A stretch of 54,366 nucleotides of DNA from IMG/VR virus record IMGVR_UViG_3300009509_000539, positions 1 to 54,366 of that record. One strand, given 5' to 3'. The position numbers and the translations under genes were made by a program. The notes below the pieces were generated by a model. It did no database searches and was not told the origin of the DNA. It saw only the letters and a list, made by a program, of their open reading frames with translations. Positions 5,521 to 35,523 of the stretch are shown here, piece by piece; the first letter of the stretch is position 1; the number at the start of each line of letters is the position of its first letter. This DNA is from a virus.

Positions 5521-5921
5521 AGATTAGTTTATATTTAGATGACCTTCTCGAAGACTTAGAGGAGTTTAGACCCGGAAGTCTTAGCGATATCTGTCGTTTT
5601 GTTAAAGGATATGAGCATTACAAACCGATCATTATGCTAGCTAGTAACTCGGATCGATCATCTTTGTATTTGTATGGTTTGGGTATTTGCTTGATACAGG
5701 GTGTATGTTCGAGATCTGACTGGGACATAGCAGATGTTCAGTTAGCGGCTGTGTTAGTTTTAATTGGCGAGACTTATGGTTCTCACCATGTCGATCGGTA
5801 CGACAAGTTGTTGTCGAGCGCCTCGTTGGAGTCGGGTAGGTATCATTGGTCGCGAGCTATGGCGGCCAGCTATCTGCTTCACAGAGAGGTGACTAGTGAG
5901 AGATTATGTCAGTCTGCATAA
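5517..5921 (+). CDS. Hypothetical protein, 134 aa
   Basis: I do not recognise this protein. It starts at an ATGA overlap with the gene before it and ends 26 bases inside dnaE. It looks globular and helical, with a hydrophobic central helix (DVQLAAVLVLIGETYG) that is too polar at its edges to be a clear membrane span. The acidic N-terminus (LDDLLEDLEEF) is notable. Coupling to dnaE suggests expression with the replication genes. Confidence 0.55.
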   Translation: MKISLYLDDLLEDLEEFRPGSLSDICRFVKGYEHYKPIIMLASNSDRSSLYLYGLGICLIQGVCSRSDWDIADVQLAAVLVLIGETYGSHHVDRYDKLLSSASLESGRYHWSRAMAASYLLHREVTSERLCQSA

Positions 5922-8643
5922 CCACACGATAGGTTCCATTGGCGATAGTATCATTTCGCCGAGAGAGATAATCCAAGCTACTAAGGAGGCGGGCCAGTCG
6001 GCTGTAGCTGTTACTGACCATGGTTCGTTTTCTAGGCTTTGGGAAACCTACAAAGTGGCAAAGAAAGCCGGCATCAAGTTAATTGCCGGTTGTGAATGCT
6101 ATTTTGTTGATGATGCAGATGATGAGGATGACGTTGCCTTTCGACATTTGGTTCTGTTAGCGAAGAATCAAAAAGGATATCAAAATCTTCTAACTCTCAA
6201 TAAGCGGGGATTTGACAAACAAGCTGTTGCTTTTAAGCGGGCAGTTCCACGCATCGATTGGAAGATGCTTGAAGAGTTCCATGAGGGTCTGATTTGTACA
6301 TCAGCTTGTGGTAATGGGCTGGTTGCACAATATATAATGCGTGACCAGCTGGAGGAAGCGAAGGAAGCTGCGCTTCGTTTACAAGGAATCTTTGGTGACG
6401 ATTTTTGTTTAGAGCTACAGCCGCATAATCTCCAGCGCCGTGCTTCTGGTTATTCTGGTCCAGTGAACCAGCAGAAGATCAATATGGCGCTGAAGAAGAT
6501 TGGGCAGGAAACTAGTATTCGCTGTATCGTGGCGACGGATGCTCATTACGTCAAGAAAGAGCATCACAAGGGTCATGATGTCTATTTATGTATCGCTTCT
6601 AGCCAGCCTATCAATTCTGGCTCTCGTTTGCGGTACGACAAACATGAATTCTACGTCAAAAATGCAGATGAAGTGTATGGATATTTCACTCGTCATATGA
6701 AAATGTGGGGCGAAGAATTCATAGAATCGCTGTTTGAGAACGCTGTGTACTATGCCAATCAGTGTGAGATGGCTGATTGGATTAATCCAGAGGTAAGTAC
6801 AGGCGAAAAATCCCAGCTCCCTGAGTTTCCGTACAAGGATGAGCCGGATTATGAGGAGTTTCAGTGGTGGCAGAGTAGTAAAAGTGAGTACGACATCAAA
6901 GAATTCAAGAAATCTGACATTCCAGAGGATGCTCAGTTCTATCGATACCGTACTGAGAGGGGTTTGGTCCAGAAGATTGACCAGAATAAAATACCGGTTG
7001 CCGATCTTAACGAGTGTATCCAGCAATCATTGGAGGAATTCGATGTTTTTGAGTATCGTGGGTTCTCATCCTATATGCTTATCACTGCTGACTTCCTCAA
7101 TTGGTGCAGGAGAAACAGCATTGCGATTGGACCTGGCCGTGGATCTGTTGGTGGTAGCCTTACCGCGTATGCAAATGGTATCCATCAAGCCTATCCAAAG
7201 CGATATCAGTTGATTTTTGCTCGCTTCCTTAATAAATACAAAGAAGCTTATCCTGATATCGATAATGACATTGCACCTTCTGGCCGTAATAAGCTACATG
7301 ACTACTTGCGCAGTAAGTATGGTGAGGAGAATGTGGCTCACGTTTCGAATATCAACACTATTACACCGAAGGTTTACGCTCGGGATATCGCACGTATATT
7401 CGAATTTGGGGAAAATGGCCGTAGCGCTGCCGCAGAAATCGGTAATAATATCGCTGATTCTATTCCAGATGATATAAAGACTGTTAAAAAAGCCCTATCT
7501 GATGCTCCTCTGTTCGCTGAATATGCCAAACAGTATCCAGAATTAGCGGAGTTTGCTGAATTGTTGTGTGGAAAGCCAAGAGCTTGGTCTACACATGCTG
7601 GTGGTATCGTTATTTCAAAGCGCCCGTTGGAGGGATTGGTTCCACTGCGCCGTGATACTTCTGGTGCTCTAGTGCTGGAGTACGATAAAGAGCTAGCAGA
7701 AGAAAATGGCCTGGTTAAAATCGATACATTAGGCTTGGAGACTTTGGATATCATCGGCGAAACATATAATCTCGTCAGAGAATCTGGCAAAGAAGTGCCA
7801 CAAGAACCCTTTGATTATGAGATAACTGATGATAAATCATACCAACTCATTGGTGAAGGTGATACTTTTGGTGTTTTCCAGCTAGGATCTACTGCGGTTC
7901 CTGTTTGCAAGAAAGTCAAACCGAGGACCGTAGCGGATATTGCATTGGTTTCTGCTCTAGTGCGCCCCGCGGCAAAGGATACCATTCCCGATCTGCTCAA
8001 GGTTAGGAATGGTGAAGAAGAAATGACACTAATGCATCCCACTTTGCATCGCGCATTTGCGGGAACATATGGTTATGGTTTGTATGAAGAGAGTTTGATG
8101 TACCTTGCGCAGGACGTTGCTGGCTGGGATCTGCACGATGCAGACAAGTTGCGCAAGCTTACCAAGGAGAAAGGTAAGAATCCGGAGAAAGTGAAGCAGT
8201 GGAGAGGTGAGTTTATCGAGGGTGCGGTCAAGAACAAGTCCCTTTCCGAAGAGACAGCAACGAAAATCTGGGATGAGACAATAGCACAGTTCGGCGGTTA
8301 CGGGTTTAACAGGAGTTTGTACTTTTCTGAATCGGTTGATATATTCACTTCAGAAGGAGAGTTCATAGCCTCAAAGCCAATCCAAGATGTTCAGCCTGGA
8401 GAATTCGTTCGGTCAAGAGATGAAGATACGGGCGAGGATATTTACATCGAGGTGATTGGCAAACACGATCATGGAGAGTTGGAGGTGGTTGAGGTAGAGC
8501 TTGAAACTGGAGAAAAGGTACGATGCACAATGAATCACAAATTCAGGACAGTAGAAACAGGAGAGATGTTACCATTACATCAGATTCTCAAGGACGGACT
8601 GTCTATTGTTGTAAGCGATGTCACAAAAACTTCTGGGATCTGA
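5896..8643 (+). CDS. dnaE: DNA polymerase III alpha, N-terminal part fused to split-intein N half
   Basis: Replicative DNA polymerase of the bacterial C family. Residues 1-806 are polymerase and 807-915 are the N half of a split intein. The PHP domain is at the N-terminus with metal ligands retained (H8, H10, D17, D41, H42 and a later TDAHY), so proofreading by PHP is possible. The palm has GPGRGSVGGS, D454 and D456 in PDIDND, and D610 in KIDTLGL, which match the three catalytic Asp. The start is GTG at 5896 after GAGG. The polymerase stops at GYGFNR, and the next residues (Ser-Leu, then SVDIFTSEG) begin an intein. The rest of the polymerase is encoded from 9907, so an active enzyme of about 1256 residues requires protein trans-splicing. 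Confidence 0.93.
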   Translation: MRDYVSLHNHTIGSIGDSIISPREIIQATKEAGQSAVAVTDHGSFSRLWETYKVAKKAGIKLIAGCECYFVDDADDEDDVAFRHLVLLAKNQKGYQNLLTLNKRGFDKQAVAFKRAVPRIDWKMLEEFHEGLICTSACGNGLVAQYIMRDQLEEAKEAALRLQGIFGDDFCLELQPHNLQRRASGYSGPVNQQKINMALKKIGQETSIRCIVATDAHYVKKEHHKGHDVYLCIASSQPINSGSRLRYDKHEFYVKNADEVYGYFTRHMKMWGEEFIESLFENAVYYANQCEMADWINPEVSTGEKSQLPEFPYKDEPDYEEFQWWQSSKSEYDIKEFKKSDIPEDAQFYRYRTERGLVQKIDQNKIPVADLNECIQQSLEEFDVFEYRGFSSYMLITADFLNWCRRNSIAIGPGRGSVGGSLTAYANGIHQAYPKRYQLIFARFLNKYKEAYPDIDNDIAPSGRNKLHDYLRSKYGEENVAHVSNINTITPKVYARDIARIFEFGENGRSAAAEIGNNIADSIPDDIKTVKKALSDAPLFAEYAKQYPELAEFAELLCGKPRAWSTHAGGIVISKRPLEGLVPLRRDTSGALVLEYDKELAEENGLVKIDTLGLETLDIIGETYNLVRESGKEVPQEPFDYEITDDKSYQLIGEGDTFGVFQLGSTAVPVCKKVKPRTVADIALVSALVRPAAKDTIPDLLKVRNGEEEMTLMHPTLHRAFAGTYGYGLYEESLMYLAQDVAGWDLHDADKLRKLTKEKGKNPEKVKQWRGEFIEGAVKNKSLSEETATKIWDETIAQFGGYGFNRSLYFSESVDIFTSEGEFIASKPIQDVQPGEFVRSRDEDTGEDIYIEVIGKHDHGELEVVEVELETGEKVRCTMNHKFRTVETGEMLPLHQILKDGLSIVVSDVTKTSGI
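8314..8643 (+). other. Split intein N-half (IntN) in DnaE
   Basis: Residues 807-915 of the upstream dnaE product. Ser1-Leu2 and SVDIFTSEG correspond to intein block A, and VRCTMNHKF to block B (the usual TxxH, here TMNH). The segment ends near DGLSIVV, typical of the end of an N-intein, and stops at 8643. The first residue is Ser rather than the common Cys. The host site, GYGFNR before and SHATLYS after, lies 4 residues downstream of the Y/CFNKSH site used by the cyanobacterial DnaE split intein. Confidence 0.85.
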
Positions 8644-9569
8644 GCAAGGCCGAAACTCATATAATTGAGTGTAAAGCTAAGTTCGATCAGTTACCAGAAG
8701 GTATTGATTTTGTGGTTTGTAAGATATGTGGGTGGCACGCTAAGAGACTGTCTGGTCATCTACATAAAGAGCATGGGATTGATTCGTCTGAATATAATAA
8801 TCCGGTCCTTTGTGAGACTTCAAAGAAGAAGTACGAGGCAGTTGCTCAAGATAATGGTAATTGGATTGAGAAGGCCAAGGCTCGCGGAGAGGATCTTGCA
8901 GAGTACAGAAAGAAAATGGGTAAGGCTCTTAGTGAGTCAATTATATCCAATCCAGAAGATCGAAAGCGTCGAGCGAAGGTGATGGCTGGCGTGAACAAAT
9001 CGGAAGTTATGCGCAAGAAAGCCTCCGAAACAGCTAAGAAAACATCAGCGCGAGAAGATGTACAGGAGAAACGGGCGGCGCAGTTAAAACGGTGGAGAGA
9101 CGAAAATCCAGATAAGTTTTTCAATCAATGTACAAGCAGGATGCTCAGGCCACACTGGCATAGCAAACCAGAGTCTTTGTTGTATGATGTTGTTAGTGAT
9201 AGAGATAACTACAAATTCAAACAAAATCAGGTGGTAAAGTCGAACACGTTTATTTCTAAATCGAAACGAAAACAGGTAGACATCGGAGATAAATCAAGGC
9301 GTGTGTATATTGAATATGATGGCAAACTACATTTTATTCAAACCCGATTAAACCAACTACAGAAAGTTCAGGAAAAGGATCGTCTGTTAGATGAACATAT
9401 CAAGAAACATAGTTGGGTTTTGATTAGGGTGGGATATGATCAATTTTCGTATCGTAAATCGGATTATGGTTTTAAGAAAAAATGTCTTGATAGAGTATTT
9501 GGTATTCTCGACAACCCAACACCAGGGGTTCATTATATAGGAGAGGTTTATGTTTCAAGAGATAGGTGA
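8523..9569 (+). CDS. Homing endonuclease, Vsr-like/EDxHD type, inside the fractured dnaE
   Basis: Encodes a 348-residue protein between the two halves of dnaE and in a different frame. Two zinc-finger-like parts are near the N-terminus: CKRCHK with later H and C, and CKICGWHAKRLSGHLHKEHG, which resembles MucR-type fingers. A long basic helical linker follows. The C-terminal third looks like a Vsr/PD-(D/E)XK nuclease: PESLLYDVV, KQVDIGDKSRRVYIEYDGKLHF, then KDRLLDEHIKKHSW and VLIRVGYDQF. The ATG at 8523 overlaps the IntN coding by 121 bases, with AAGG just upstream; it overlaps the downstream gene by 20. This fits the 'fractured gene' arrangement in which a free-standing Vsr-like endonuclease spreads a split intein. 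The exact start is uncertain. Confidence 0.82.
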   Translation: MHNESQIQDSRNRRDVTITSDSQGRTVYCCKRCHKNFWDLSKAETHIIECKAKFDQLPEGIDFVVCKICGWHAKRLSGHLHKEHGIDSSEYNNPVLCETSKKKYEAVAQDNGNWIEKAKARGEDLAEYRKKMGKALSESIISNPEDRKRRAKVMAGVNKSEVMRKKASETAKKTSAREDVQEKRAAQLKRWRDENPDKFFNQCTSRMLRPHWHSKPESLLYDVVSDRDNYKFKQNQVVKSNTFISKSKRKQVDIGDKSRRVYIEYDGKLHFIQTRLNQLQKVQEKDRLLDEHIKKHSWVLIRVGYDQFSYRKSDYGFKKKCLDRVFGILDNPTPGVHYIGEVYVSRDR

Positions 9570-9906
9570 ATTACAAGGAGGTTTAGTTCCTGATCCTGAT
9601 AAAGAGATTAGTATAGATTCGTTTGTTGAACAATATAAAGAGCGTGCAAAGGAAGCATGTCAAGAGAAAGGATGGTCAGAAGATGTCTGGAGGACATTAG
9701 CTGAGATTTGGGCACAGACTGATATGGATATTTTTCGTGATGTAGCTTATAGTATCAACGGATCGGTGAGGGATGCTATCATTAAACTGGCAAAAAAATC
9801 CAATATCAAAACGGTGCGTCCAGTTGAAAAAGCACAGACATATGATCTTGAGGTGGCCCACCCAGATCATCAGTATTATCTGTCTAATGGGATGTTAACC
9901 AGTAAT
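9550..9906 (+). other. Split intein C-half (IntC) in DnaE
   Basis: The last 25 or so residues show block F (TYDLEVAHPDHQYYLSN) and block G (GMLTSN followed by Ser). The penultimate residue is Ser, not the common His. The half is about 119 residues, far longer than the usual 35-45, because about 80 helical residues precede the block F region. That extra part does not look like polymerase. Confidence 0.82.
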
Positions 9907-11259
9907 AGTCACGCCACCTTGTATAGCATGATTTCATTCCATACGGCGTACCTCAAAGCGAATTACCCCATTGAATTCCTGGTAGCGAACCTGATGTCCG
10001 AGGTTCGGTCCAATGCTAAGGCTGCTAGGGACAACATAACCAAGATTAAGAACGAGATTAGAGCCAGACGTGTGAAGATTGTGCCCCCAGATGTCAATAA
10101 ATCAGGGCTTTCATGGAAGATTGTGGACGATAGAACGCTCATGACTGGCCTAGATTCCCTGAAATTCATGGGTAAGGATGCTATTCCTGAGCTAATTGAG
10201 AAGCGTCCATTCAGTGATTATCAAGATCTAATCTATAGAACCCATTCTCAGAAAGTTCGGTCCCCTAGTATTCAGGCAATGGCTGCATCTGGCAGTCTAG
10301 ATTCGTTTGGAATGGACCGGAAGATCATGTATCACTACGCATCTGACTATCGCGCAAAGCTGCGTAGTCATATGGCCCGCTTGGACAGGGCTTGGGCTAA
10401 GAAATGGGCTGAAGAAAACGATTATGTCAAGGATTCTGATGAGCTTGGTGACTTCTGGAGAGACAAATTCGGCACTCGTTACGAGCCGCCTCCCCCTCCA
10501 GATGATCGGAAGACTGCCCATTTAGCTGAGTTTCACTATCCTTTCCCGGATGAGACACCGTGGACGGTACAAGAACGATTCGCTCTAGAGGAATATTACA
10601 TGGGCGAAGGTATCTCGGGGGATACTTTTGAGCGATACCCAGACTTCTTTGATAGGAAGAAGTCTGTTCCATTCGCTGCACTACCAGAAGCATTCCCTTG
10701 GAGCCTTCAACATGAGGATGAGCGCACCAATCGCAAAGCAAATACACATTACCTTGCTAATCATAAGATGAGACCAATGGAGGCTGTCATCGTTGGTATG
10801 TTTGTCTTCGTGGTAAAAAACGAGGAGTCGCCTATTTTCGGAAAAGAGATGGCCAGATTTACCATTCAAGATCCTTGGGGTGATGAATCTACATTGCTCG
10901 CTTTCCCAGAGGGCTGGGAGGAGATGAAGAATCGAATTGGGAAAGAGTTATCGAATGGTCAGAAGATTGAGCCGGGACTAGCAATCAGATTTATTGGGCA
11001 GTTTCAATGGGAAACCGAGCACACAACATCTTTTGTGCTGGGTGATATATTGGATTTTAAAGCGCCTCCGAGTCTTCCCGAGGACTATCGATGTTCTAAG
11101 ATGGTAAAGATGCCGAGAACTAAGAAAGTTAAAGCAGAAGAGATAAGTTCATCTACAATGAGCGATGTCTTGGAACAATTAGAAGATGAAATGCTGGATA
11201 ACGGGTTATCTTCTGTAGATGATGAAGATGATGAGGTTGATAGTTACGATTTTAGTTGA
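9550..11259 (+). CDS. dnaE: Split-intein C half fused to DNA polymerase III alpha C-terminal part
   Basis: Residues 1-119 contain the C half of the intein, ending in Asn119. Residues 120-569 are the polymerase from SHATLYSMISFHTAYLKANY onward. The extein carries the finger/tandem HhH-type region (MAASGSLDSFGMDR), an OB-fold segment near residues 415-505 (VIVGMFVFVVKNEESPIFGK) and an acidic tail (DDEDDEVDSYDFS). The start is well marked: AGGAGAGG lies 3 bases before the ATG, so this half is translated independently. Trans-splicing to the 5896-8643 product would join GYGFNR to SHATLYS. The polymerase total of about 1256 residues is normal for DnaE. Confidence 0.92.
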   Translation: MFQEIGELQGGLVPDPDKEISIDSFVEQYKERAKEACQEKGWSEDVWRTLAEIWAQTDMDIFRDVAYSINGSVRDAIIKLAKKSNIKTVRPVEKAQTYDLEVAHPDHQYYLSNGMLTSNSHATLYSMISFHTAYLKANYPIEFLVANLMSEVRSNAKAARDNITKIKNEIRARRVKIVPPDVNKSGLSWKIVDDRTLMTGLDSLKFMGKDAIPELIEKRPFSDYQDLIYRTHSQKVRSPSIQAMAASGSLDSFGMDRKIMYHYASDYRAKLRSHMARLDRAWAKKWAEENDYVKDSDELGDFWRDKFGTRYEPPPPPDDRKTAHLAEFHYPFPDETPWTVQERFALEEYYMGEGISGDTFERYPDFFDRKKSVPFAALPEAFPWSLQHEDERTNRKANTHYLANHKMRPMEAVIVGMFVFVVKNEESPIFGKEMARFTIQDPWGDESTLLAFPEGWEEMKNRIGKELSNGQKIEPGLAIRFIGQFQWETEHTTSFVLGDILDFKAPPSLPEDYRCSKMVKMPRTKKVKAEEISSSTMSDVLEQLEDEMLDNGLSSVDDEDDEVDSYDFS

Positions 11260-16509: not shown

Positions 16510-17516
16510 ATACTCAGCAAGCATGTGATCTACTTGGTATCTCCGTTGGTACCCCAATGGATGAAGTCAAGAAAGCTTTCAAAAAGAAAGCTGCACAATA
16601 TCATCCTGATAGAAACCAGGATGAGGGCGCTGAGGATAAATTCAAAGCGGTTAACGAAGCGTATCAATTGCTGGAGAAGCATGGCACGACTCCAGCTGCC
16701 GCGAACGACGTATCATCTCAGTTTTACAATCACAGCGATGATTTATTTGAAGAGCTGCGCCGACGTATGGATGAAACATTCAATCCGTTCGGAATACCTA
16801 CACACATACGGGGAGAGCCAATCATCGTCAGTGTCGAGATACCTTTTGAAATAGCAGTAACCGGTGGTAGGAAAGAAGTCACTTACGAACGTAGTGTGAA
16901 GTGTACATGTGATAGTGGTAATATTCCTATCAGTGAAAGTAAACAGATGTGTCCAAAGTGTGGGGGACACGGTTATCGCAAGTACGGAAACGGTGAGAAG
17001 AATCTTCCATGTAATATTTGTAAGGGTACTGGATATTTGTCATCTAAAACTAAATGTTCCAAGTGTGGTGGCTCTGGTATTACCCAGAGTGTTGACACTA
17101 TGAAAGTAGCTATTCCTCCGGGAGCAGAGAGTGGTACGCGGTTAATTTTGAAGGAAAAGGGTAATTATCGGAAGAATGCTTATGATAATGTTATCGTTGT
17201 AGTACGTGTGTTACCCGATCATGACATGCAGCTCAGTGGTAAGGATGTTATATCCGTAGTTGAGCTTAGTTTGCTAGAGGCTCTGACGGGGACGAAAAAA
17301 AAACTTCGTACCGTTAAGGGAGAAAAAACGTTAGCATTCAAACCAAAAACACGACACAGAGATACAATTAAGGTTTCAGGTTATGGTGTTCCACCCAACG
17401 GATCACATACATTTATAGTCAACGTCTCTTATCCTGAGGATGTAACTAGGATAATTGAGGTGTTAGAGAATCAAGATGAACCTGAACCAGAGGAAATTTC
17501 TGGAATACAGAGTTAG
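16506..17516 (+). CDS. dnaJ: DnaJ (Hsp40) co-chaperone, type I
   Basis: A full DnaJ: J domain at residues 1-60 with the HPD motif (33-35), a short Phe/Gly-poor linker, a zinc-finger domain with four repeats, and the C-terminal beta domains. The repeats are CTCDSG (133-138), CPKCGGHG (149-156), CNICKGTG (169-176) and CSKCGGSG (184-191). The first is degenerate because it is CxC, not CxxC. The Gly/Phe region is much reduced. DnaJ stimulates the ATPase of DnaK and hands it substrates; no DnaK or GrpE gene lies in the window, so host DnaK is the likely partner. Placement between endonuclease VII and primase suggests a link to replication complexes. Confidence 0.95.
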   Translation: MNTQQACDLLGISVGTPMDEVKKAFKKKAAQYHPDRNQDEGAEDKFKAVNEAYQLLEKHGTTPAAANDVSSQFYNHSDDLFEELRRRMDETFNPFGIPTHIRGEPIIVSVEIPFEIAVTGGRKEVTYERSVKCTCDSGNIPISESKQMCPKCGGHGYRKYGNGEKNLPCNICKGTGYLSSKTKCSKCGGSGITQSVDTMKVAIPPGAESGTRLILKEKGNYRKNAYDNVIVVVRVLPDHDMQLSGKDVISVVELSLLEALTGTKKKLRTVKGEKTLAFKPKTRHRDTIKVSGYGVPPNGSHTFIVNVSYPEDVTRIIEVLENQDEPEPEEISGIQS

Positions 17517-21378: not shown

Positions 21379-24300
21379 TGGCAATTTCAACGGAACTTAG
21401 GGTTCTAGCTCGTAAGCTAGAGAAAAATAGTGACGACCTATTGATTAACGCTTCACATAAGGGCCCGGAGACTTTCGAAAAAGTGGCGACCGCTGTAGCT
21501 GCTGCATCTACTCTTCTTGAGAGTGTTGCTGATGATATGGAAGCTAAAGCTGAATTTAGAATGACCGAACAGCAATTCGATGAGATGGTCGAAACTATCA
21601 AAGCTTTCAATGAGAGCGGCGATGATCTTCTCAAGAAGCAAGCCTCGGTTATGGAAGAGCTACTCCTTTCCATTGCAGCGCCAAAGAACGCAGCACAACA
21701 GGTTCGCAAGGTCACCGAGGATGAAGTCAATCGACTACGCGAAGAGCGTAGGCGTGCTCGTGGCGAAGAAGCCTACATCAAACCCAGACAGGAACATCAC
21801 GACATGTGGAACTCTGCTGCCCAGGCTAAGGCCGTAGAGCAACAGGTGAAGCGTTATGTTCCGCTGGAAGCACCACTTCAGACACGGTATCCACCAGACC
21901 GTCCCGGTGGACAGATGACTCGTATCACTGATCATGTGTACCAGGATATCGTTACCGGCATTATCTATGATTACAAAGCTGGCTATACCACTCAGAAAGG
22001 AAACAAGATTCCTGGAGGATCTGTAGAAAACCAGACACGTCAGCTTGGTGATTATAGGCATCAGAGTAGCGCATTGTTTGAGACTCGTGATTCTCTCATG
22101 GGCCGCTATGCTGCTGACGGAGATCTTCGTCACTTGAAGAAGTACGCTCTGAATAGCGAGATTGCAGAAGCAATTCGGGCGGTGCGCGATGAGGCACCGG
22201 AACTGGTGAATGATGCTATCGATCACGCTTTTGATGATGGCCTCTCTACAAGCGAAGTAGCCAATATCCTGAGCGATGAGATTAAGGCTACCGGCAGTCT
22301 GAAAGATTGCCTTGCCGCAGCCGGCTGGGACGACATCTCCCCAAAAGTACCAACCGATCCTAAGACTAACCGTGAGAGTCTAGTTGCATTGGCTCTGAAT
22401 GCCATCCAGGAACTAGCTCCCCATCTGCTAACAGCTGCTGTTGATAAAGCTCAAAAAGAACTGACTGACCAGCAAATTAAGTCAATTCTAGCTAATGGGT
22501 TCAGTGGTAAGTTTGAAGTCTCTTCGTTCAGTGAGGAGAATGAAATCAAAGTAGCAGAATCATTGCTGCCACATCTGAGAGATCTGGGCTGGAATGATCT
22601 AGCAGATCATCACCTACAAGTGATGGCCAAACTTGGGATCGGAATAGATAAAATACAGAAATTCTCTGGTAAAAAAAAGTCCTCTCATCTACATAAGTTG
22701 AGTAGATTACTCAGAGATGCAGCTCCAGCACGTGCGGTGGAAGTCCCTTTATATGAGACTGAGGAAGAACCGCCTCCTTCGATTTTTTTTCAGGGACAGC
22801 CTGCTGAAATTGAGGAAGCTCCTCCAACTATACGCCAGGTCCCGCAAGGAATGATAGAGGAGCCTGCTCCGGGTTTGTTCTCTGAGTTATTTGGAGAACC
22901 ACCAGTACAAGGCCCCGTTACTCCAATGGATGATCTTGCTGAATGGAATAAGGTCTACGAAGGAGCGAAGCAGGTTGTCTCACAAAATGCTGGCGTTAAA
23001 GAGCAGATGATTGCACTGATTCAGTCTGGCCAAAGAGATGAGGCCGAGAATCAACTTAAACGGCTTATCAACGAAGAGATGAATAGACATGGCTTCGTTG
23101 GCGCTTATGAGACAGATGAAAGCGGAAAAGAATACCTCCTTGTAGCGCGGGATTTAGGTGCTCGACCAACGGCTCCGGAGATGCCCGAGGAAAAAGTCAC
23201 ACCTGGCGCAGCCACAAACCAAGGTAAGGAACTTGGTTGGGAAGAATACCAAGCCAAGAATAAAGTAGTGGTTAGTGATGAGAAAGCCTCCGATATGGAG
23301 AAGAGAATATTCCAGCTTCACAATTCAGTAAAGGGAGGGTTCGATAAGATTTATGTTCAGTATACCTTCCCAGGCTCTGATATCCCTCTATCTATCGAAA
23401 GACTACCCGCGTCCATTAAAAGTAAACTGACACCTATGTACATGCGGGGAGAAACCACTACGGCTATGCTTGATTCAATGAAAGATTGGCTATCAGAGTA
23501 TGTGGAGCCTAAGGCTGATGCACTAACAGATGATAAAATAGTTGAACTTCGTCGCAAATCCGAAGAATTGATGGAGGAAGCTGCTGCTCTTGAGACAAAA
23601 GGGGAAGCAGAAAAAGCCGCCAAGAAGATGGACCAAGCTGCAAGAGAAGAAGCTAAATCTAACAATAGAGAGGTTGTCAGAGATGAAGTAATTTTAGAGC
23701 AAATAGAAAAGCTCATGCCTTCTATTGATGATTTGACAAAGGCTAGAAAGTCTTTGCGTGGTGCTGAGAATAAAGATCAGGCGAAGAGACTGAGGCTAAA
23801 GGCTATTTCTAATGCACTCCAGGCTGCCGCTAATATGGTCCTAGATAGCGAAGGACTTCCACCAATGTTCCCGGGCGGTGAGATTTTAACCAAGCAAGAT
23901 TTTACCAAACAGATGGAAGAACTTGGCAAATCTGAAGGAGCTATTGCTCGTAGCAAGGAAGAGAAACGACAAATGGCCAGAACCAAACGAAAGAGTATTT
24001 TGGTTCATCCAATTCCCGAAAATGCTGAGGGCCAAAGACTTTCTACTATTTGGGAGGAACCCGAAAGGTATATTGAGGGTCTTCGTCAGGCGAAGGCTAA
24101 GTTCCCAATGAAAGGACGGTACATTTCTAGAGAAGAAGATACAAAGAAAAAGTGGGATAAATTCATGGAAGAGCAAGGGTTAGTCCCACCTAGTTACAAG
24201 CTGTTTGGTTCGACGGGTAGTACATTAGCTATGCTCAGGGGTTTTATCAATGATTTGGATAAAGTTGCATTCCCAGATTTTGGTGGCCTCAAGAATCTGT

Positions 24301-30676: not shown

Positions 30677-32161
30677 ATGAGAAATTACAGTGGTGCATTT
30701 CAAAGAACGGGAGAAATCAGTCGTGAACCTCGCAAGCGTTCCGAATGGTTGGAAGATTTTGCCGAGAAACTAGCCATCGAAGATCAGGCTAAGCGTGGGA
30801 CAGAGGAGCAGCCAGAGAAGGAACAAGTCAAGACAGGCAGGGCTCCAGTGACCGCTGTAGAAGTTGCACGTCAACGTCAGCATGATCAACCATCTATTTT
30901 TGAGATGATGAGTGCAATCGTCTCGGGCAAGCAGCCCAAGTACAGTTCTGTTGAGGAAGCTGTCAAGGATTATCAGCAGCGCACAGGTTTGACTCAGTAT
31001 CTCCAGAGTAAAGCTGAAGATAAAACTGGTTTAGATGACGCAGCCCAGCAAATTGTTGAAGCTGGTTTGATGACGGAGCAAGGTATCGATGATTTAGAAA
31101 CAATTCTCAAATTAGTCCGAGAGAATCCTGATTTCAATGATATTGGAGAGGGTGTTTCTGTTTGGGCACACGATCCTGAAGTAGCTCTTGTTAGAAACGA
31201 GCCGTACGGAGAAAACCCAGTACGTTATGGAAATAGCGGATGGCTAGTTTGGACTAAAGATATTCCAAAAGATACTAGTACCTTGGAGCCTATCCGTATA
31301 CCTGGACCTTCTGGGTTAATGAGAGAACGTGGTATCGATGATTTAGAAACAATTCTCAAATTAGTCCGAGAGAATCCTGATTTCGATGATATTGGAGAAG
31401 GTGTTTCTGTTTGGGCACACGATTCTGATGTAGCTCTTGTTAGAAACGAGCCGTACGGAGAAAACCCAGTACGTTATGGAAATAGCGGATGGCTAGTTTG
31501 GACTAAGGATATCCCAGATATGGGCGGAAACAAAACTGATTTTGGTGATGAGGATTATGCCAAGGACGATGACGACCCAAAAGCCGAGGATAAACCAGAA
31601 GAATGGCTGGCTAAAATTGTAGAACTCTTTGGTAACGGTCCTGATGATGATGGCCCTGGCTCAGGTGGCGGTGGTACTCGTCCTACTTTATTTGAAGTTC
31701 CGGAAGAAGAGGAAGAAGAGGAATGGGAAGAGGCGGCTACAGATGATTTTCCAGGCAGTCTAGATGAATACATGCTTGACGATGAGGAAAGGGTCAGGAA
31801 GATTCTGAGCGGCTCTGAAGCTGAACAGATCGAATTCCTCAAGATGGTTCTAAGGGAAGAGCCTGGGGATATCGAAATTGATGATGATGTTCTCTTGGCG
31901 CTTCTCACAGAGCATGGTGCCTCTGAAAAAGTACGTAAAGCGGCTGAGAAGATTGAAAATATGTATGGGCTAGATTATCCCACACATGCAGAGTTTGAAG
32001 AGGATTACACGCCCCGTGAAGACTATGAACCTCCTAGGGAGCGAGAGAGGATGCGACTCGACTGGGAGGAAGAAGAAGCAGCTTGTGCTGATTGTGCTGA
32101 ACGAGGCCCGGTTGAATTATTTGCTTCCGCATTCAAGGATCTAACAGAAAAAAAAGTCTAG
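30677..32161 (+). CDS. Protein with tandem repeat; 0-frame product of a probable -1 frameshift, 494 aa
   Basis: I do not recognise the family. The start at 30677 follows AGAGGATAAC, so the ATG at 30653 is not needed. Residues about 136-197 and 219-280 are two near-identical copies of one unit (GIDDLETILKLVRENPDF... ending in WLVWTKDIP); the centre is Gly/Asp-rich (DDDGPGSGGGG), followed by an acidic region and a helical acidic C-terminus. The last codons are GAA AAA AAA GTC TAG. The AAA AAA run, a 6-base spacer and a 12-bp stem follow in the order expected for programmed -1 frameshifting, which would add 124 residues in place of the last residue. No enzyme motif is seen. Confidence 0.75.
   Translation: MRNYSGAFQRTGEISREPRKRSEWLEDFAEKLAIEDQAKRGTEEQPEKEQVKTGRAPVTAVEVARQRQHDQPSIFEMMSAIVSGKQPKYSSVEEAVKDYQQRTGLTQYLQSKAEDKTGLDDAAQQIVEAGLMTEQGIDDLETILKLVRENPDFNDIGEGVSVWAHDPEVALVRNEPYGENPVRYGNSGWLVWTKDIPKDTSTLEPIRIPGPSGLMRERGIDDLETILKLVRENPDFDDIGEGVSVWAHDSDVALVRNEPYGENPVRYGNSGWLVWTKDIPDMGGNKTDFGDEDYAKDDDDPKAEDKPEEWLAKIVELFGNGPDDDGPGSGGGGTRPTLFEVPEEEEEEEWEEAATDDFPGSLDEYMLDDEERVRKILSGSEAEQIEFLKMVLREEPGDIEIDDDVLLALLTEHGASEKVRKAAEKIENMYGLDYPTHAEFEEDYTPREDYEPPRERERMRLDWEEEEAACADCAERGPVELFASAFKDLTEKKV
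31082..31516 (+). repeat. Tandem 186-bp duplication inside the 30677 gene
   Basis: Bases 31082-31267 and 31331-31516 match at about 180 of 186 positions, with a 249-base (83-codon) period. Most differences are silent or conservative. Copies are separated by 63 less similar bases; similarity may extend upstream because GLMTEQ precedes the first copy and GLMRER the second. The frame is kept, so this looks like a recent domain duplication. Confidence 0.9.
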
Positions 32162-32196
32162 CTGAGCATCATCACCACGGGGAAGATGATGCTCAG
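32149..32196 (+). promoter_or_regulatory. Probable programmed -1 ribosomal frameshift signal
   Basis: The slippery heptamer A AAA AAA is at 32149-32155, within an 8-A run (32148-32155). The spacer 32156-32161 (GTCTAG) contains the 0-frame stop TAG (32159-32161). A perfect 12-bp stem, CTGAGCATCATC (32162-32173) with GATGATGCTCAG (32185-32196), closes an 11-base loop. A -1 slip continues the protein to 32529. The slippery-site, spacer and stem order matches known signals. A homopolymer-length error in assembly would also fuse the frames and must be excluded. Confidence 0.8.
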
Positions 32197-32529
32197 GAGG
32201 ATGATGAAATCCCTGAGTTAGTTCTTCAGAATCCGGCGATAGAGCATTTTGTCGTCAATATGATTGATACTAGCCACGGAATTCAGATTCCTGCATTGCT
32301 CCAAAGTCTTATAGAGACATTCGGTCGTGATGGCGTAACTCAGGATGTTTTCTCGGACAAAAAGTTATTAAACTGGATCAATAGGCACATGATCGCGAAG
32401 CAGCGTCCCCGCGATGCGATACCAGCACAGATCGGTCGTGGTGTTGGTACTCGTATTGAATATCCCGGTTTCCGTGATCCAAATAGAGATCCTTTCACCC
32501 TCCTGGTACCTAATAAGGGCGTGTTTTAA
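32155..32529 (+). CDS. C-terminal extension read by -1 frameshift, 124 aa
   Basis: In the -1 frame from the slippery site there is no stop until 32529, and the translation looks natural throughout: an acidic stretch (GEDDAQEDDEIPELV) followed by helices (IQIPALLQSLIETFGRDG) and a conserved-looking end (PGFRDPNRDPFTLLVPNKGV). No ATG, GTG or TTG occurs in this frame before 32260. That ATG lacks a Shine-Dalgarno, so independent translation is weaker than frameshifting. Fusion with the upstream gene gives about 617 residues. The alternative is a separate 89-residue protein from ATG 32260. Confidence 0.75.
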   Translation, partial: SLAEHHHHGEDDAQEDDEIPELVLQNPAIEHFVVNMIDTSHGIQIPALLQSLIETFGRDGVTQDVFSDKKLLNWINRHMIAKQRPRDAIPAQIGRGVGTRIEYPGFRDPNRDPFTLLVPNKGVF

Positions 32530-32598: not shown

Positions 32599-35523
32599 AT
32601 GAAACCAGGAGAAATAGGATTCTCCGCACTGTTTGAACAGTTCCGAGATAGCATAATGCGTGTCGATCCTGTGTATTTCTGCGCGAAGTACTTGACGATC
32701 GATGGCGGTAAGCCGCTAGACTTGGAAAAGTCAGGATATAAACCTTTTGCGGACATTTACAGGTATATTGGACTTTCAGCAATTGAACCAAATGCCAAAC
32801 CAATTGTATTAGTTAAGGGCAGGCAGGTAGGTGCAACCACCATGGCCGCTGCCCTTGAATGTTATTTCACTGCATGTGGATTGTTTGGAAATAATCAGCG
32901 CCCACCTATGCGATTGATCCATCTATTTCCCACGTTGTCTTTGGCCGCTGCATACACCAAAGACAAGCTGGACCCGATTCTAGGTGAGGCCAGAGCAGTT
33001 CCAGGTACCATGAAAACCAATGGACTCCCCAAGTCCTACATGGAGAACGTCATGGATCTGGGAAGTCCCAGTAATAACAACATGCATTTCAAGAAATTCT
33101 TGCATGGTAATCAGCTCTGGATTGAATCAACTGGTCTAGATGGTGACCGTATTCGTGGTCGTCAACTTTGCTTAGAAACAGAATTACCAACACCTGATCG
33201 TGGTTTTGTCAAATTGAAGGATTTGAGAGAGGGTGATAGGCTTTTTGATGAAAATGGTAATGTTTGTAACGTCATTAAAGTTCATCCAATTCAATATTCT
33301 CCAGAGTCTTATCGTGTAACATTTGATGATGGAACTCAGATAGATGCTTGTGCAGAACATCTATGGAAAACTCATACTCGTTATGAGCGAAAGAACGGAA
33401 AAACCCTTGGGATTAGGAACACAAAAGAACTCCTTAATACTCTTACAATGTCTGGTGAAAGTAATCATTCAATTCCTGTTTGTGGTCCGGTACACTATCC
33501 CAAGCAAATATTAGATATTGATCCGTATCTTTTAGGTTTGTGGTTGGGTGATGGTGATAGATATGGCAGAATAGAGACCGCAGATGTTGAGGTTTTGGCT
33601 GGTTATGACCACAGATTGATTGCATCTTCTGTAAACCATGAGAGTAATTTCGGCACATCTAAATCAAATTCGTATAGGGTTATTGGCCTTACGACAGCTT
33701 TGACTAAGTTAGGATTGGTTTACAACCCAGGAAAGAAACTAAGAGATGAAGGACGAGGGTATTATAACAAGAGAATTCCCAGGCAATATCTTGAGGCATC
33801 TTTTGAACAAAGACTAGATCTTCTCCAGGGACTTATGGATGCAGATGGTTGCTGCGATAAGGATGGTCGTTGTGAGTTTGTACAATGTGATGATAGAAAA
33901 GAATTGATTAAAGATGTTCAAGAGCTTATTCATTCTCTCGGTATTAAAACATCAATGTACAAAAAAGAGTCTTGGCGGTATAATGTAAAATACCAGGATA
34001 AATGGTCCTTGCAGTTCTATACTACTCTGCCAGTTTTCAAACTTGAGAGAAAGCTTCAAAACATCAAAATTAAACTTACAAAATCGAATAAAAGGTTTAT
34101 CAAATGTATAGAGCCTATTGATCCAAAACCGATGAGGTGCATCACGGTAGACTCCCCATCACATTTATATTTGGTAACTAAGTCGTACATTCCGACTCAT
34201 AATACAGCCGATTGCGCATTGTTTGACGAAGTGCAGGATATGTCTGACGTTGCTATTGGTGCTGTCACCAAGATTCTTGCTCAGTCTCGTTATGGTTCTA
34301 CCGGTGAAGGTGTTCAGGTTTATTTTGGAACACCCAAGACCAAGGCCGGATCTTACTATGAAATGTGGCGGAATTCTAATCAGCAGTACTACCATCTGCG
34401 CTGTGAGAGATGCGGAAAGTATTTCCCTCTGTATCGTCCTGATGTGAACTGGGAAGATATTTGGCTCTATGGAATGACTGTCCGTTGTACAGAGTGTAAT
34501 CACGAGCAGGATAAGTTAGATGCACAAGAAAGAGGCAGATGGATTCCGCTCCAAACAGTGAATGACGATGGTAGGGAACCTGATTACGTGGGGTACCACT
34601 ACAATCAATTACTTATTCCTAAATTCACAAGAGAGGTTATTAATAAGGCCAAACCGGAACGTAGCCCTATCAACACTGAGCGTGTGTACATGAACGAGGT
34701 ACTTGGAGAGTTCTATGATGGCGAAGGCGGTACCATTACCGCCGAAGAGATTCGCGAGAAGTGTATTGAGAAAGGCCGCAAGATGGTGAAGTATATTCAC
34801 CGTGATAGTGGTAAGCGTGTCTATGGTGGTTTTGACTGGGGCCAGAGAGGAATGCTCGATCAAATTGCCGGTCGTGGACGTAAAGGTTCCTACAGCTGTG
34901 CGGTTATTTTAACAGTTGAAGGAAATATATTTAATATCGAGTTTGCCACCCGTTTAATGAAGACCGATCCAGAACACAAAGAGGCGGCGGTTGAAGAGAT
35001 GTTCCGGCGTTACAATTTGACTCTTGCCGTGGGTGATATTGGTGATGCCTACGATCTAACACATAGATTACAAAAAACATATAATGAAAGGTTCTTGGCT
35101 TCTCGTGCTCAGCATAAAGTAATTGGACATGTTAAATACTCCAAAGATGAATGGCCGAAGACAATAGTTTTTGAGAAAGATTATTATATTGGAGAAGTTC
35201 TTGGTCTATTAAAAGAAGGAAGAATTAAGTTCCCAGGAGGACATCATCACAAAATTTCTTGGTTAATTGAGCATTGTTCAAGTATGGACATCAAAGTTAC
35301 CAAGGATAAGTCATTTGAGCCCCGTAAAAGGTATGTTAAGGGAACGGGCGCAAACGACGGTCTGATGGCGTTATTAAACGCCTATTTAGCCTGGAAATTC
35401 GATATAACTCAGCGTTTCTCAATTAAGAATCCAATTCACATGAAATATGAGCTGGCCGAGAATGCTCGTCCCATTCAGGCGGTTGTTGGGTATATTCCTA
35501 GAATGTTCAACGGCCGTGGATGA
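32599..35523 (+). CDS. terL: Terminase large subunit precursor, interrupted by an intein
   Basis: The packaging motor ATPase and nuclease. Walker A-like GRQVGATT is at 74-81 and Walker B CALFDE (539-544 in the precursor) lies right after the intein. The nuclease domain has FDWGQRG, VGDIGDAYD and a final GANDGLMALLNAYLAW. A zinc ribbon (CERCGKYFP and CTECNHEQ) after the ATPase domain is like that in GpA-type terminases. Residues 191-535 are the intein; without it the protein is 629 residues, normal for TerL. The intein sits between RIRGRQL and TADCALFDE, next to Walker B. The portal gene follows 23 bases after the stop. Confidence 0.93.
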   Translation: MKPGEIGFSALFEQFRDSIMRVDPVYFCAKYLTIDGGKPLDLEKSGYKPFADIYRYIGLSAIEPNAKPIVLVKGRQVGATTMAAALECYFTACGLFGNNQRPPMRLIHLFPTLSLAAAYTKDKLDPILGEARAVPGTMKTNGLPKSYMENVMDLGSPSNNNMHFKKFLHGNQLWIESTGLDGDRIRGRQLCLETELPTPDRGFVKLKDLREGDRLFDENGNVCNVIKVHPIQYSPESYRVTFDDGTQIDACAEHLWKTHTRYERKNGKTLGIRNTKELLNTLTMSGESNHSIPVCGPVHYPKQILDIDPYLLGLWLGDGDRYGRIETADVEVLAGYDHRLIASSVNHESNFGTSKSNSYRVIGLTTALTKLGLVYNPGKKLRDEGRGYYNKRIPRQYLEASFEQRLDLLQGLMDADGCCDKDGRCEFVQCDDRKELIKDVQELIHSLGIKTSMYKKESWRYNVKYQDKWSLQFYTTLPVFKLERKLQNIKIKLTKSNKRFIKCIEPIDPKPMRCITVDSPSHLYLVTKSYIPTHNTADCALFDEVQDMSDVAIGAVTKILAQSRYGSTGEGVQVYFGTPKTKAGSYYEMWRNSNQQYYHLRCERCGKYFPLYRPDVNWEDIWLYGMTVRCTECNHEQDKLDAQERGRWIPLQTVNDDGREPDYVGYHYNQLLIPKFTREVINKAKPERSPINTERVYMNEVLGEFYDGEGGTITAEEIREKCIEKGRKMVKYIHRDSGKRVYGGFDWGQRGMLDQIAGRGRKGSYSCAVILTVEGNIFNIEFATRLMKTDPEHKEAAVEEMFRRYNLTLAVGDIGDAYDLTHRLQKTYNERFLASRAQHKVIGHVKYSKDEWPKTIVFEKDYYIGEVLGLLKEGRIKFPGGHHHKISWLIEHCSSMDIKVTKDKSFEPRKRYVKGTGANDGLMALLNAYLAWKFDITQRFSIKNPIHMKYELAENARPIQAVVGYIPRMFNGRG
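33169..34203 (+). mobile_element. Intein with LAGLIDADG homing endonuclease in TerL
   Basis: 345 codons in frame inside terL. It begins with Cys191 (CLETELPTPDRGFVKL), ends in THN before Thr536, and has the penultimate His. Block B-like and block F-like (ITVDSPSHLYLVTKSYI) regions are present. Two LAGLIDADG motifs are visible: LLGLWLGDG (residues 311-319) and LLQGLMDADG (408-417), separated by about 90 residues. It is a full, probably active, self-splicing element with a homing endonuclease. Confidence 0.92.

Follow-up and report, generated by a model that had tools for sequence, protein, structure and literature searches.

A candidate programmed slippage site in a viral gene directly upstream of terL, predicted to give a short and a long form of one protein

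The window analysed here is the whole of IMG/VR virus record IMGVR_UViG_3300009509_000539, 54,366 bases, in which the gene for the large terminase, terL, with a LAGLIDADG intein (32599–35523; this and all features described below for the gene next to it lie on the plus strand), provides the synteny anchor for relatives. On its upstream side lies an ORF (30677–32161) for a 494-residue protein comprising an N domain and a linker and ending in ...EKKV-TAG, with ACA GAA AAA AAA GTC TAG as its 3' end. The run of eight A in this segment (A8; 32148–32155) includes the heptamer A_AAA_AAA (32149–32155), which has the X_XXY_YYZ phasing of a −1 frameshift site in the 0 frame, and is followed by a 6-nt spacer, GTCTAG (32156–32161), containing the 0-frame stop TAG (32159–32161). 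Immediately beyond, at a distance that falls in the range of about 5–9 nt expected of a 3' stimulator, is a perfect 12-bp stem with an 11-nt loop (32162–32196; arms CTGAGCATCATC at 32162–32173 and GATGATGCTCAG at 32185–32196), which we presume to play that role. The −1 frame continues through 32155–32529, being open for 124 codons (32155–32526) up to a TAA (32527–32529), with the ATG at 32260 as its earliest ATG, GTG or TTG, and encodes a conserved C domain predicted to be all-helical. A −1 slip on the heptamer would join 493 and 124 residues into a trans-frame product of 617, whose predicted junction peptide includes ...DLTEKKSLAEHHHH.... The initial annotation had described this layout exactly, from A run to 11-base loop, as it had the 124-codon frame without a start before 32260. 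Another putative element is AAGGA (32135–32139), 9 nt upstream of the heptamer and identical in the relative L002. Frameshifting in E. coli dnaX has a Shine-Dalgarno-like stimulator, and by analogy AAGGA may act likewise in the window and L002.

The segment 32140–32230 folds more stably than its dinucleotide shuffles (z = −3.05), the 60 nt 3' of the A run give z = −4.2, and a fold as stable as that of the window's stem region arises in only 6 of 2000 synonymous recodings. Perfect 12-bp stems with loops of 3–12 nt occur just four times in the 261 kb of the window and its relatives, and two of the four sit exactly 6 nt past a junction A8, one in the window and the other in the distant relative L094; the same two account for every perfect stem of at least 9 bp within 3–10 nt of a run of seven or more A (2 of 88 runs). 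In L094 the fold is still more pronounced (z = −6.5), with none of 2000 synonymous recodings as stable. Synonymous recoding thus excludes the stem as a mere by-product of amino-acid coding for the window and L094, not for L002, where the test is weak (83 of 2000 as stable). We also rejected an intrinsic terminator on the minus strand, where the stem would lie 6 nt from the T run, the recognisable genes being on the plus strand. Rfam yielded no match. Two further A runs in the window, an A9 at 17295 in a DnaJ-like gene and an A8 at 22671 in a gene for 1171 residues, have no stem.

Using terL as anchor, relatives were gathered from viral contigs, all of them metagenomic, so that the run lengths given below rest on assemblies. 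Some near-clade contigs reach about 200–390 kb, from which we infer that the window is probably a piece of a large phage genome. Its terL intein is absent from L002, L003 and L008, and terL of L014 has an insert of its own. Profiles of both halves of the protein placed the N and C domains together in one ORF, immediately on the upstream side of terL, in most relatives, the N domain (about residues 1–110) being followed by a long acidic and variable linker and then by the C domain. The linker of the window gene contains a duplication of about 60 codons (about 31091–31275 and 31331–31515; GIDDLETILKLVRENPDF...WTKDIP). Since both halves form one ORF in relatives, the −1 part corresponds to the ancestral C-terminal domain of the same gene and not to a second gene; the view in the initial annotation that two late-gene products are fused must consequently be reversed, to one product that is cut short.

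The protein family has not been described previously. No Pfam, PHROG or PDB sequence match was found, tblastn against phage records gave nothing usable, and a genome-contig scan disclosed no relatives. Foldseek searches with two AlphaFold models produced no usable match and no PDB fold match, the sole hit being one uncharacterised BFVD protein with a probability of 0.98 but an E value of 0.055; because the models are of only moderate confidence, the lack of a match to a small-terminase fold is weak evidence. The side of terL on which the gene lies, in the window as in most relatives, is that expected of the terminase small subunit, and from this position our guess would be that the protein is a small terminase or else a partner in packaging. 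Phage tail-assembly chaperones of the G/GT type are likewise late-gene products that acquire a C-terminal extension through −1 frameshifting (cited in PMC5009743). Unlike them, the gene considered here lies upstream of terL, neither resembles a chaperone nor precedes a tape measure gene, has no PHROG relation, and gains as its extension an ancestral domain of its own, in agreement with the earlier remark that the protein is unlike known tail chaperones.

The −1 frame is under purifying selection. Between the window and L002, its dN is 0.068, with dS 1.4 and dN/dS 0.048, and the 35 codons upstream of the ATG at 32260 give practically the same ratio (0.049), compared to 0.70 and 1.11 for the other two frames. 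Moreover, that ATG is not conserved, being GTT in L002 and GTC in L003. With selection beginning before the first possible start, and that start not kept, translation must enter the C domain from upstream. This bears on whether re-initiation or coupling past the TAG gives a free-standing C-domain protein. Such an arrangement could draw on the ATG at 32260, or on an overlapping TAATG in L094 (3060–3070) with its ATG in the −1 frame right past the slip site, where re-initiation could supplement frameshifting or take its place. Neither the window nor L002 has a usable start close to the stop, however, and given also the selection upstream of 32260 and the fused protein in most relatives, we regard re-initiation as very unlikely. 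A separate, well-initiated downstream gene lacking a stem, which the initial annotation had named as a refuting observation, was found in none of the relatives, the TAATG of L094 being accompanied by a stem as well.

An A run of 8–11 just before the C domain is present in 19 of the 20 members of the window's clade in the TerL tree. The remaining member, L174, has fused N and C domains and no run, so the slippage signal can be lost. In a set of 19 of these contigs (245 kb), runs of nine or more A occupy 17 of the 19 junctions; elsewhere in the set A9 or longer is encountered three times and A10 or longer never. Codon usage points the same way, with lysine within the runs of the 14 fused genes encoded exclusively by AAA (37/37) and outside the runs, in those same genes, by 151 AAA and 112 AAG (57% AAA). 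Thus, conservation of A9 or more beyond codon need, as expected of transcriptional slippage, is seen in relatives that lack a stem, the window having only A8. Stops crowd around the runs: all 21 are followed within 9 nt by a stop in one alternative frame (background 49%), and both alternative frames are closed within 26 nt in 20 of the 21, counting, for the seven split genes, alternatives relative to the C-domain frame, so that their own 0 frame is one of them. For the 14 fused genes alone the nominal P for a stop within 9 nt is 4e-5, a binomial value that ignores phylogeny. A9–A10 runs also occur in another group (L034, L078, L089 and L112), while most of the distant members have none. In a distant clade otherwise without runs, A9 is found near the junction in L138 (3132) and L156 (3131), possibly as an independent gain.

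The C domain is in the −1 frame only in the window, L002, L006, L029, L014, L017 and L094, the register of L017 being deduced from a TGA that the C frame contains shortly before the run. Single-base changes in homopolymers are common assembly errors, and the split state of the window could in principle reflect one of these, or else a frameshift mutation that recently inactivated the gene. This is hardly credible: L002, from another sample and at a dS of about 1.4, shares the A8, the GTxTAG motif and the frame, and the same split register recurs in five other relatives. The co-occurrence in one clade of in-frame and out-of-frame states, with runs of 8 to 11, might also suggest phase variation at the DNA level, in which the run would be a contingency tract toggling the C domain on and off. 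Against this, the out-of-frame copies are all in the same −1 register and the A8 copies have a precisely placed stem, making a contingency tract extremely unlikely. Run length is, moreover, identical in every set of near-identical contigs, evidence against both phase variation and assembly error.

Conservation of heptamer and stem, a check proposed in the initial annotation, holds for part of the family. The A8 members are the window, L002 and the distant L094, each with a 3' stem that starts about 6 nt past the run. In L002 the stop and frame are as in the window, the spacer is GTATAG, and the stem has lost its outermost pair to a mismatch and contains one G-U. L094, on a 336-kb contig, has the spacer GTATAA and a 12-bp stem (TGACCAATAACG/CGTTATTGGTCA, 9-nt loop) at the same 6-nt spacing as in the window and with no sequence in common with the window stem, and GAGG lies 7 nt before its heptamer. 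The A9–A11 members have no comparable stem, and their C domain is in frame in some and in the −1 frame in others. Four of them, L006, L029, L014 and L017, would require a shift and yet have no strong stem, that of L006 being moderate (z = −2.0) and not unusual under synonymous recoding. On the TerL tree, at least four switches between split and fused states and at least two changes of the A8-plus-stem arrangement are needed.

RNA-polymerase slippage is described as efficient at 9 A/T, with an RNA stimulator located 5' of the slip site (PMC5009743), and runs of more than seven A appear among the sequences given for transcriptional realignment (PMC3711429). Considering these properties with the 3' stems of the A8 members, we infer that A8 with a 3' stem is a ribosomal slip site and that A9–A11 probably act through RNA-polymerase slippage. 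The window pair could also arise from polymerase slippage at its A8, through mRNAs with one extra A and with the stem incidental or modulating, a view with which the length of the run and the stemless A9–A11 relatives would agree. We deem it unlikely, since a stem lies about 6 nt 3' of the run in all A8 members found, no 5' hairpin is apparent (45 nt upstream in the window, z = +0.8), and an unrelated stem at the same spacing in L094 suits a ribosome and not a polymerase. The programmed −1 frameshift put forward initially gains strong support, at the level of sequence comparison, from selection on the −1 frame, conservation of run, stop and stem in L002 at a dS of about 1.1–1.4, and the recurrence of the layout with an unrelated stem in L094.

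We consider it quite probable that programmed slippage at the A run before the C domain yields N-only and N-plus-C proteins from one gene. The ancestral gene upstream of terL would have encoded N domain, acidic linker and C domain. In the window, ribosomes on GAA AAA AAA GTC TAG would either stop at TAG, giving the 494-residue N-only form, or pause at the 12-bp stem that begins 6 nt past the run, slip by −1 on A_AAA_AAA and read on to the TAA at 32527, giving the 617-residue form that includes the C domain. In the stemless A9–A11 relatives the same pair would probably result from RNA-polymerase slippage, whichever form the DNA encodes in frame. The purpose may be a fixed proportion of full and C-less subunits in a protein for packaging or head assembly, which could be the small terminase. 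The two forms proposed at the outset are therefore retained, without their ranking as major (494) and minor (617).

The closest parallel may be dnaX, whose tau and gamma forms arise by −1 ribosomal frameshifting in E. coli, by polymerase slippage in Thermus thermophilus, which has nearby stops in both non-zero frames, and from split genes of the Chlorobium type (PMC5009743, PMC3711429). As in dnaX, one gene would give a long form and a short form devoid of the C domain, some lineages have an A-rich heptamer with stimulators and others a run (A9–10 in dnaX; PMC5009743, PMC3711429), the long or the short form may be the default one, and stops lie close by in the alternative frames. It differs from dnaX in being an unrelated phage protein beside terL, with A_AAA_AAA within A8 as heptamer instead of A_AAA_AAG. 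T7 gene 10A/10B and the Lactobacillus phage A2 capsid, both in the references of PMC5009743, are also phage morphogenesis genes with two forms by −1 frameshifting; unlike the undescribed terL-adjacent protein, those are major virion proteins. Runs of about nine A or T yield two products in bacterial genes and IS elements (PMC5009743), and the present case is unlike these in that two kinds of slip site appear interchangeable within one orthologous phage gene.

Dual output seems to be the conserved feature, against a changing mechanism and default frame. A wider reading, to which we give about an even chance, is that across this clade of uncultured large phages the terL-adjacent protein almost always comes as two forms, with repeated swaps between ribosomal and polymerase slippage and between long and short default, as a viral counterpart of dnaX in which the output and not the mechanism is selected; A8 with a 3' stem would then belong to at least two separate lineages, and the protein would perhaps be a small terminase or a packaging regulator. 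We found no report, in the open-access literature, of a slippage signal in a terminase-adjacent gene. The gene would add an undescribed viral family to the few with a conserved programmed short/long pair and suggests that a protein of DNA packaging or head assembly requires a partner without the C domain. The relatives offer a natural series (A8 plus stem, A9, A10, A11, no run) on when the ribosome and when the polymerase slips, and gene callers will annotate its split forms either as a pair of genes or as a pseudogene.

Elsewhere in the window, a DnaE-type DNA polymerase III alpha gene, recognised by domain search, is divided between two ORFs (5896–8643 and 9550–11259) with an unassigned further ORF (8523–9569) between them. 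Read by eye, an apparent N part of an intein closes the first DnaE ORF and an apparent C part opens the second, and the locus looks like a fractured-gene split intein.
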